Below, in pieces: positions 552 through 3,064 of a DNA stretch of 64,000 bases. The notes beneath the pieces are model-generated. The model did not search any database. It had not been told where the DNA came from and was given only the letters and a program-made list of their open reading frames with translations. The stretch lies in contig NZ_NSKE01000006.1 of the NCBI RefSeq assembly GCF_002287075.1, positions 1 through 64,000 on the forward strand, in the 5' to 3' direction. This stretch comes from Fodinibius salipaludis. GTDB lineage: Bacteria > Bacteroidota > Rhodothermia > Balneolales > Balneolaceae. Position 1 is the stretch's first letter. Each line of letters starts with the position of its first letter. Made by a program: the position numbers and the translations under genes.

Positions 552-966
552 CGGCCGTTTTTTGCTTCTCTTTTAGCTGATAACAGCTCCGATTTTTAGC
601 CCATGTTTGTGGTGTGCTTTTTCAGAATTACGAGGTTGCACCAGTGCCAATTTCAAATTTCGCATTCTTGCCCTCGTGGTTGGTGACGTATTCTTGCTTT
701 TACGGCAAAATTCCCGGTGCTCCTGCTCGTTTCGAAAAGCCTGGTTCTCGTGTGCCACCGGCCTCCGCGGCATTTTCTACAATTAACAGCTTCTGGTTTT
801 CCTGCTTCTATCAAAAGAGTTGCTGTGTTCTCATCTTTCGCCCCAGTATAACCCGCGCTATCAGCGGACAGGCCTCGCCACCGGTTGCCTCCCTTCCATT
901 TATTAGTTAATCTTTCGTTTTACAACGAATTCAACATTCGGCGCCTGCAGCTGTAGCGCCATATCG
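510..966 (+). other. Cassette 2: bounded by attC cores but without a convincing gene
   Basis: The interval starts after the G of GTTATAC (509) and ends at the G of GTTAGGT (966), with its own attC at the right end. Between 516 and 845 I find no frame with convincing protein character. A 66-codon minus-strand frame (573-773) is rich in Arg, Lys and His with no recognisable domain, and a 98-codon plus-strand frame (614-910) runs straight through the attC site. The cassette may be a decayed gene, a non-coding cassette or a promoter cassette. Confidence 0.5.
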
Positions 967-972
967 TTAGGT
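846..972 (+). repeat. attC-like site 2
   Basis: The left core GTATAAC (846-852) is followed by CCGCGCTATCAGCGGACAGG; the right arm GCCTGCAGCTGTAGCGC leads to the core GTTAGGT (966-972). The arms are inverted repeats. GTATAAC is the exact reverse complement of GTTATAC at 509-515, the core at the start of the same cassette, rather than of GTTAGGT, which belongs to the next cassette. That pattern is what integron strand exchange between G and TT leaves behind. Length 127 bases, within the usual attC range. Confidence 0.75.
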
Positions 973-985
973 ACAGTTAAGAAAT

Positions 986-1666: not shown

Positions 1667-1812
1667 TATCACTGTACCTAACCCGCGCTTCAACTGGGAC
1701 GTGCCTCGCCCTTTCGGTGCCGATTTTGGTTTAGGTAATTTCTGTAGTACATTTTGTTTTTCATTCAACACTACTGCGCACGCCCCTTATGCGCAATGAA
1801 CTGTGTTTAAAG

Positions 1813-2766
1813 TCAAGCAGCCAATGCCTTTTTTTCTTCAAATGGTTCGCACTTACTACCTACGGCAAATGCCTGTCGCAGCAACTTATGTGCAATAGCC
1901 ACTTTAATCACTTTTTCTGGTTTTCCTCTTTTCTTTAGTCGATCGTACATTTTCTTGCAGGCTGGATTGCTGTGTTTTGCGGACCAGCTGCACATATACA
2001 GCAGCTTCCGTAGTTGTGGGCAGCCTAATTTGCTAATACTTCCACGGCCCCTAACCGACGTTCCGGACTCCCATATCCGGGGGCAAATGCCCACGTAGCT
2101 GGCCAGCGTTCTGGCGCTATCGAAGCGACCGAATCCATCGGTAACTGTTACCAGCTCAATAGCTGTTTTTTTGCCAATGCCAGGGATGGTTAAAAGCGCT
2201 TCCATAACCTCCTCGTAATGCTCCTCAGCCAACGCTTCCATACGTTTATCAATACGGGTAATATGTTCCTGGATCTCCGTTTGCATCTTCCGGTTTAGCT
2301 CATTTACCATGGGCTCAACATCCTTATTTTGGCTAAATGCCTCGGCCTGCCCAGTGAGAATGGCTTTCTGCCGCAGGAGCCCTTCCCGCATGGTCATTAG
2401 CTTTTTCAGGCCTTGTCGGGCTTTAGAGGGAGGACACCACAGCTCCGGTTGTTGATCAATGCCATACTGGGCAATTAACCCAGCATCTTTGGCGTCTGTT
2501 TTGGTTCGGGTCAGCTTCATCTGTCCGTAGCGCCGGATAACCAGTGGATTTACGACACTAATTTTTATGTCCTGCTCATATAAATAGCTGGCCAATCCCA
2601 GGTAATAAGGGCCGGAGGCTTCCAGCACCACTAGGGGATCGTCTTCAATCCATTCGCTTAACTGCTTCCATCCGGTTGGGTTATTAGGAAATTGACCAGC
2701 AAGCCTGCGGGTCGAGCAAAAGCAGTCAACCCATTCTTTTGAGATATCTATACCAATAGTGTTCAT
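1813..2766 (-). CDS. IS110-family DEDD transposase/recombinase (317 aa)
   Basis: Catalyses RNA-guided cut-and-paste style recombination of the element. The N-terminal RuvC-like domain shows Asp7 (GIDIS), Glu49 (LEASGPY), and Asp91 and Asp94 (TKTDAKDA), the family DEDD set. A helical middle (about residues 110-185) follows. The C-terminal Transposase_20 domain shows LLTIPGIGKKTAIEL and the Ser-rich motif ESGTSVRGRGSISKLG, which holds the catalytic serine in this family. All expected motifs are present and the frame is open, so the element looks active. The frame extends upstream to 2895, but the start at 2766 is preferred because MNTIGIDIS is the family N-terminus and the upstream part overlaps the structured non-coding end. 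Confidence 0.95.
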   Translation of the reverse strand: MNTIGIDISKEWVDCFCSTRRLAGQFPNNPTGWKQLSEWIEDDPLVVLEASGPYYLGLASYLYEQDIKISVVNPLVIRRYGQMKLTRTKTDAKDAGLIAQYGIDQQPELWCPPSKARQGLKKLMTMREGLLRQKAILTGQAEAFSQNKDVEPMVNELNRKMQTEIQEHITRIDKRMEALAEEHYEEVMEALLTIPGIGKKTAIELVTVTDGFGRFDSARTLASYVGICPRIWESGTSVRGRGSISKLGCPQLRKLLYMCSWSAKHSNPACKKMYDRLKKRGKPEKVIKVAIAHKLLRQAFAVGSKCEPFEEKKALAA

Positions 2767-2799
2767 CGCTTCGTATATTTTAAATACGTGAAGGTGAAG

Positions 2800-2972
2800 A
2801 AGGTTTCCGTGTCCAAATCCATCCTGCATACTGGCTCGAAGCCTACTGTGGCTGCCGGTGGTTACACGGTGGTGGCAAATGGGCAGGACAATCATTGCGC
2901 TCGAGCTCTATGGCTCAATGTCGTCTTACTGGTTCCCTGCCCGCCACCAACCTTCCGTTTGAAGGAATATCT
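2800..2972 (-). ncRNA. Candidate bridge RNA (seekRNA) of the IS110-family element
   Basis: Read on the minus strand, the order is: a small 5' stem-loop (arms 2961-2965 and 2951-2955); a target loop closed by a 13-bp stem (2936-2948 with 2871-2876 and 2881-2887, four-base bulge); and a donor loop closed by CCGTGT/ACACGG (2807-2812 with 2864-2869). In the target loop, 2916-2924 (CAATGTCGT) equals the right half of the restored attC target, and 2893-2900 is the exact reverse complement of GCGCAATG at 1791-1798, the left half. In the donor loop, 2820-2825 is the reverse complement of AGGATG at the right element end, and ACTGTG at 2845-2850 matches the left end (1800-1805). The order and size match published IS110-group bridge RNAs. 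The exact ends are inferred. Confidence 0.7.
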
Positions 2973-2978
2973 ACGAAT

Positions 2979-2986
2979 CAAAAATA
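2979..2986 (-). promoter_or_regulatory. Candidate -7 element for the bridge RNA
   Basis: The minus strand reads TATTTTTG, matching the Bacteroidota -7 consensus TAnnTTTG. Transcription would start near 2972, just before the 5' stem-loop at 2951-2965. A clear -33 TTG at the usual spacing (about 19-21) is not present inside the element; TTTAAAG from the terminal repeat occupies that area. It may also drive the transposase. Confidence 0.4.
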
Positions 2987-3018
2987 CCAGTCAATACCAA
3001 GTGCTTTAAACATAGGAT

Positions 3019-3064
3019 GTCGTTATACTGCGCGTCGGCCATTACAGCTTGTCCAAAAATTTTG
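3019..3064 (+). repeat. 46-base cassette leader, copy 2
   Basis: Identical to 506-551; it begins at the right core of attC-like site 3 and extends into cassette 4. From 3065 to 3261 there is no gene. The sequence keeps patchy similarity to cassette 2 (TTTTGCTTCTCT, GCACCAGTGCCA) and contains no further feature I can name before the ribosome binding region GGGAAGAGAG just upstream of the ATG at 3262. Confidence 0.9.

Follow-up and report, generated by a model that had tools for sequence, protein, structure and literature searches.

The first 64,000 nucleotides (nt) of contig NZ_NSKE01000006.1 of Fodinibius salipaludis (forward strand; hereafter the window) contain a 1.2-kb insertion element of the IS110 group which lies inside an integron attC site (1799-3016, minus strand) and very probably encodes, upstream of its recombinase gene, a bridge RNA programmed to the 3' end of the attC sites of its host. 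The programmed target would consist of the L'-R' spacer and the first bases of the crossover box of the integron integrase (IntI). A first-pass annotation of this DNA had proposed a bridge RNA programmed to attC, an interpretation that is supported at the level of sequence by the anatomy of the element, the identity of guides and target, the confinement of the specified sequence to attC sites in its own genome, three occupied attC sites and covariation among relatives. The bounds of the element were set by aligning three copies with different flanks together with empty attC sites of its own genome, which gives the following parts:

3017-3019, minus strand: core CAT, left-junction copy (the core is present at both junctions and single in empty sites)
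1799-3016, minus strand: IS110-group insertion element, left end at 3016 and right end at 1799, 3-nt core excluded
3004-3016, minus strand: left end with subterminal repeat TGTTTAAAG (from aligned copies)
1813-2766, minus strand: transposase/recombinase of 317 amino acids (aa), DEDD_Tnp_IS110 and Transposase_20 (from Pfam, PDB relatives and the tree)
1799-1812, minus strand: right end CTTTAAACACAGTT, 14 nt non-coding, with the inverse repeat copy CTTTAAACA (from aligned copies)
1796-1798, minus strand: core CAT, right-junction copy (also single in empty sites)

Both domains of the recombinase, DEDD (PF01548) and Transposase_20 (PF02371), score above the curated Pfam cut-offs, and its relatives of solved structure in the PDB are IS621 and ISCro4. 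The non-coding sequence is unevenly divided: 250 nt separate the gene start from the left end at 3016, and the right end has 14 nt. The subterminal repeat (TGTTTAAAG/CTTTAAACA), a feature that is absent or very short in the IS110 group, is perfect over 9 bp, or 10/11 with one mismatch, and is shorter in relatives by eye. Two further copies carry the same guides. One of them, L017, lies on contig C10 of the focal element's own genome and is 85% identical in protein sequence along most of its length; the other, L005 (78% protein identity, open frame), comes from Fodinibius sediminis, and L031 is taken to be this same copy. The viral contigs yielded no relative of the element and the genome contig set yielded one, while a tblastn search of plasmids returned only relatives below 60% identity.

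The RNA predicted within the upstream non-coding end comprises, in transcript order on the minus strand:

2790-2975, minus strand: predicted bridge RNA, ends approximate (from fold, conserved scaffold and covarying donor-loop stem)
2936-2942, minus strand: target-loop outer stem, 5' strand GGGCAGG, pairing with 2881-2887 at 7/7
2918-2924, minus strand: left target guide ACGACAT, identical to the target top strand; covaries
2903-2916, minus strand: inner hairpin between the target guides, GAGC...GCTC, 4/4 pairs, kept with other letters in relatives
2893-2900, minus strand: right target guide GCGCAATG, complement of target CATTGCGC; covaries
2881-2887, minus strand: target-loop outer stem, 3' strand CCTGCCC, partner of 2936-2942
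2846-2854, minus strand: left donor guide position (from the relatives' alignment), reading CAGCCACAG, a poor match to the right end ACAGTTCAT
2833-2843, minus strand: donor-loop hairpin GGCTTCGAGCC, with compensatory changes among 10 sequences
2820-2825, minus strand: right donor guide AGGATG, complement of the left-end CATCCT; covaries with the left end

The left target guide is identical to the target half at 3017-3023 (left half plus core) and the right target guide complements the core plus the right half CATTGCGC read from 1791-1798, so that both guides combined specify the 12-mer ACGACATTGCGC, which is the empty target. Re-reading of the window showed that the coordinates of the first-pass annotation are correct and that 2893-2900 (GCGCAATG) is indeed complementary to the target half which it listed as the left one (CATTGCGC, 1791-1798). 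Of its 9-nt segment CAATGTCGT, the 7 nt ACGACAT are the left guide, the other two letters being scaffold. Both guides in order occurred in 0/20,000 dinucleotide shuffles, the 7-mer alone in 266 and the 8-mer alone in 58. In the host genome there are 14 occurrences of the 12-mer (a reversed-pattern control gave 0), all of them at attC 3' ends, in agreement with the earlier claim that the guide specifies the attC 3' end including the first crossover bases. Thirteen of these sites have the conserved attC block and three lie beside IntI; the 14th (C8:12774) shares the attC 3' end only, as judged by eye. The earlier annotation had also taken the placement of other copies as decisive for its reading, and the three same-guide copies (window, L017 and L005) all have TAACGACAT at the left junction and CATTGCGC at the right, with left flanks that differ farther out.

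The host genome encodes an integron integrase on contig C4 (441 bits; cut-off 265), followed by three intact attC sites which all end in TTATGCGCAATGTCGTTAG, the opposite strand of which is the empty target TAACGACATTGCGC. The attC block GGACNNNCCTCGCC is present at 33 places, comprising 12 with an exact free target, two occupied by the focal element, 16 with 1-6 mismatches and three beside another element where the target is unreadable. We read these sites as attC because cassette starts are complementary to their own R'' (4/4 scored pairs at 5-6/6). In the window the relevant sites are:

840-973, plus strand: intact attC of the preceding cassette, ends approximate
1672-1798, plus strand: interrupted attC, 5' part, R'' ACTGTACCTAAC ... 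GCGCAATG (R'' to cassette start 6/6)
3020-3028, plus strand: interrupted attC, 3' remnant TCGTTATAC, with R' box and next cassette start

The 5' part of the interrupted site includes a GGAC...CCTCGCC block at 1697, and the attC at 840-973 is followed by a cassette with a 226-aa open reading frame (986-1666).

As the first-pass annotation had supposed of the non-coding end, the minus strand of 2790-2975 folds into a structured RNA (z = -2.36; 2/200 shuffles equally stable), with a target loop containing an inner hairpin and then a donor loop. This order, which that annotation had likened to reported bridge RNAs, agrees with PMC11208160, where the left guide, which has the letters of the top strand, precedes the complementary right guide and then the donor loop. 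The outer stem of the target loop is preserved with other letters in relatives (on strands picked by hand), and the donor-loop stems show compensatory change at 7/10 pairs in a 10-sequence alignment. The right donor guide matches the left element end at 50/54 positions over nine families, and 1/720 permutations of the six distinct end types among these families was as good. Both donor pieces had been noted at first pass: AGGATG (2820-2825) does complement CATCCT, while CACAGT (2845-2850) does match the right end but does not line up with the left donor guide seen in relatives (ACAGTTCA); in the place of that guide the focal RNA has CAGCCACAG. In CAT-core relatives this guide (ACAGTTCA) equals the right end; in L008 it reads ACAGATCA and the element ends in ACAGATCAT. 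Upstream, at 2979-2986, lies TATTTTTG, labelled at first pass as what would be a -7 promoter motif, and L032, a relative described next, is without that stretch.

Relatives of the element with other guides sit at correspondingly different targets. The nearest relative with another target is L032 (56% identity), which has the same scaffold as the focal RNA, guides CGTTTGT and GTTCGGG, and the target TCGT-CAT-CCTGAGCG, which by our own reading resembles a repetitive extragenic palindromic (REP) sequence. The scaffold stretch CATTGAGCC, which includes the TG of CATTG, is also present in L032 despite its different target, so that the actual left guide measures 7 nt; CATTG as a segment common to both guides was thus dropped, its TG being scaffold. 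Within one genome, G112, the sister copies L006/L010 and L013 have different letters in each of the two guides and, in step with this, in each target half (CGT/CCCGGA vs CGGT/CCCGAAC). A permutation test on seven CAT-core families (15 insertion sites, 11 positions scored; the guides of L035 (G029), G226 and G057 as well as L013 stand outside its table) gave a mean of 8.2/11 for a family's own guide vs 6.3 for swapped guides, with 5/5040 permutations as good, and when wobble was counted these means were 9.7 and 7.9, again with 5/5040 permutations. Such related pairs with altered guides and altered targets amount to natural reprogramming experiments. Natural redirection has been described for ISEc11/ISXne4 and ISEc21/ISMch6, sister elements with altered guides and targets (PMC11187229); the sister types compared here lie at attC (focal) vs a REP-like site (L032), and the change between them could have run in either direction.

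These data bear on whether attC might instead be recognized through its folded shape or through contacts between protein and DNA, with the guide matches being incidental. The attC sites and the REP-like repeats that host several relatives (REP-like again being our reading) are both palindromic in kind, and IS1111 elements at such sites have been reported to occupy what may be a folded structure (PMC11187229). We nevertheless regard this as very improbable, since changes in the guides are accompanied by changes in the target, both from family to family and among sister copies, and no shuffle in 20,000 reproduced both guides. Moreover, L107, a relative (55% identity) of a second element treated below, has a target with little resemblance to attC that nonetheless fits its own guides at 17/17 positions, compared to 8/17 for attC targets.

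Several observations weigh against an attC-programmed bridge RNA. The left target guide pairs just 4 nt past the core, and in F. sediminis (G396) the single ACGACATTGCGC found lies outside attC. In the permutation table without wobble, other guides fit G390 better than its own and G343 equally well; when wobble pairs are allowed, the targets of G343 and G390 are fitted better by the G400 guide than by their own, and for G112 and G162 the two guides score alike. A scan of the whole window against Rfam at gathering thresholds yielded no match. RNAalifold on the 10-sequence alignment recovered the donor-loop stems alone, the target-loop stems having been counted on hand-chosen strands; in the MAFFT alignment used, stems of unequal length are out of register. 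Finally, the transposase frame of L017 is broken, and the left donor guide reads CAGCCACAG in both own-genome copies, where it matches the right end poorly.

Because of this mismatch in both copies the focal elements may be impaired, and CAGCCACAG at this position is a possible defect of the own-genome copies. The element could then be a dead relic whose guides are fossils, non-functional in its own genome, for which the broken frame of L017 and the finding of two copies vs 14 exact free targets would also speak. We consider this doubtful, as the window copy retains an open frame of 317 aa together with fitting target guides and right donor guide, and in F. sediminis the frame of the copy is open and its left donor guide does match its right end, as does that of L032.

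Insertion into attC is known from the IS1111 group, members of which target attC and carry their RNA downstream of the gene (PMC11187229; PMC11616780; PMC11089894). Both ISKpn4 and ISPst6 show RNA-guided insertion at one attC end, and ISPa21 has been proposed to immobilize cassettes (PMC11187229; PMC11616780). The focal element shares with this group (ISKpn4, ISPst6, ISPa21) the insertion in attC and, very probably, the RNA guidance at one end, and differs in that these elements have a downstream RNA, an IS1111 transposase and usually subterminal repeats of 11-13 bp, whereas its own predicted RNA lies upstream. With IS621 and other IS110-group bridge RNA elements (PMC11208160) it has in common a DEDD recombinase, a long left end, an upstream RNA, the target loop before the donor loop, the orientation of the guides and a core retained at both junctions; it departs from them in its core, CAT instead of CT, its attC target, its short left guide past the core and its longer subterminal repeat. 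Downstream of the focal gene there are just 14 nt of non-coding sequence, which leaves no RNA region there. In our recombinase tree, the focal protein falls on the IS621/ISCro4 side, which has 15 rows, with IS4321, a member of the IS1111 family, apart, the separating branch having a support of 88/87, which is moderate, and the tree being midpoint-rooted with long branches. A transposase motif, G--P----SG, was rejected as a separator of IS110 from IS1111, the form expected of the latter being GL-P----S/TG; the focal protein reads GICPRIWESG and the IS4321 type GLVPRQYSTG, but IS621 itself has GL-P (GLTPRRYESG), as have L014, L033 and L038.

Membership of the known IS1111-attC group, suggested by the same kind of target and by a subterminal repeat (9 bp, or 10/11 with one mismatch) which is long for the IS110 group, is hardly credible given that the long non-coding end lies upstream of the gene and that the tree, with the reservations just made, sets the recombinase with IS621/ISCro4 and away from IS4321. 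The upstream RNA and the tree together place the focal element in the IS110 group with moderate confidence. Further papers on the IS1111-attC group are reportedly those of Tetu and Holmes in 2008 and Post and Hall in 2009. Elements of IS1111 type that target attC with guide RNAs are thus already known, and what is new is that a member of the IS110 group does so with an RNA upstream of its gene; in the literature on bridge RNAs or IS110 together with attC or integrons, part of which was examined closely, an IS110-group case was not found.

The host genome holds a second jumping gene, a distant relative of the focal one, which seems to do likewise at the other end of attC. Its element (L030, contig C13, 2266-3573, and the 3' tail of L017) has an IS110-type gene with a 340-aa product, 26% identical to the focal one and not among the proteins of the recombinase tree, and sits at the attC 5' end (TATAACCCGCGCATT / ... 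/ ATTCAAGCGGAC). The region upstream of the gene is strongly folded (z = -5.14; 0/200 shuffles equally stable), and in its first loop CCCGCGCAT and CGCTTGAAT flank a small hairpin and are the predicted guides for the attC 5' end. Its flanks lie on contigs C13 and C10, which overlap by 249 bases, so the C10 attC seems to carry both elements, one per end. The copies L103, L104 and L105 (85-89% identity), from three further genomes of the genus, occupy the same position, so that copies with both ends lie at the attC 5' end in 4/4 cases from four genomes, and the right flank of the truncated L116 and L117 is attC-like by eye. The guides fit at 17/17 positions in L030, L103 and L105, with a joint change of guide and target (CGCTTG/CAAGCG to CCCTTG/CAAGGG) among these copies, and at 14/17 in L106, where the register is uncertain. 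In L104 (G270) the fit is 12/17, with 3/8 for the right guide, and this copy is perhaps decayed or newly redirected. Guide scoring was confined to the copies named with a score, with L108, L109, L110, L116, L117, L118 and L119 set aside, as were most matches at 42-58% identity in the target comparison. All five genomes checked for this element (G282, G270, G081, G155 and G278) have IntI above the cut-off.

The window begins inside a third IS110-like element, assigned to this family by eye (minus strand, MNTTTHYAGMDIHASNTV..., start at 154). It occupies 1-234 of the window and 1-234 of L030, its left end adjoining the attC block GGACGCACCTCGCC in both contigs, and its other end was not found. 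Beside it, at 235-262 of the window, this block stands twice in tandem, an arrangement unique among the 33 places found.

Relatives in flavobacteria (36-39% identity; G057 and G226) are inserted beside an R'-like box of attC-like repeats, although for L034 and L039 the repeat cannot be followed clearly to its far end. By eye, the target arm has 6-8 nt in common with their left guides and fewer, or an uneven match, with their right guides; both junctions read CTT, which the empty sites seen lack. In a 40-kb array of G057 the cassette start matches the next R'' at 6/6 in 11/18 pairs and at 5/6 in one (sum 79/108; 0/10,000 shuffles), the 18 pairs including misses that stem partly from sites skipped by the regular expressions. 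The array (C1:104000-143800; L092, L093) has 15 R''-like sites and five IS110 copies inserted at R'. In G226 (L094, L037, L039, L041, L044, L033) there are attC-like repeats of the form ATTATACACG-TTGTTGCC with IS110 relatives at the same boundary. A search for IntI in G057 and G226 found none at E 1e-60. IntegronFinder 2.0 names Salinibacter ruber as having a complete integron in Bacteroidetes, besides Chlorobi and Ignavibacteriae (PMC9024848), and a literature search on integrons, Flavobacteriaceae and attC sites together found no paper. In flavobacterial genomes without a hit to the integrase model, such elements are pointers to cassette arrays.

We propose that the bridge RNA would be transcribed from the circular or the inserted element and then bind the recombinase, after which attC would be paired by the left guide ACGACAT on its bottom strand and by the right guide GCGCAATG on its top strand, and the joined element ends by the donor loop. 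Recombination at the CAT core would then insert the element in one orientation. As this parts R' from the remainder of the attC, the insertion should lock the cassette.

These data suggest that, besides the seekRNAs of IS1111, the bridge RNAs which occur naturally in the IS110 group are programmed to a recombination site. As a target attC is present in many copies, is intergenic and travels with its cassettes. On balance we favour the view that attC is a recurrent homing site for RNA-guided elements, to which at least three IS110-group lineages would have been separately reprogrammed through changes in their guides, namely the focal clade (attC 3' end), the clade of the C13 element (5' end) and the flavobacterial clade (integron-like arrays without a recognized IntI), and that they act as systematic cassette lockers whose guides may reveal unrecognized integrons. 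An insertion severs the IntI crossover box from its site, and cassette arrays may thereby become frozen.
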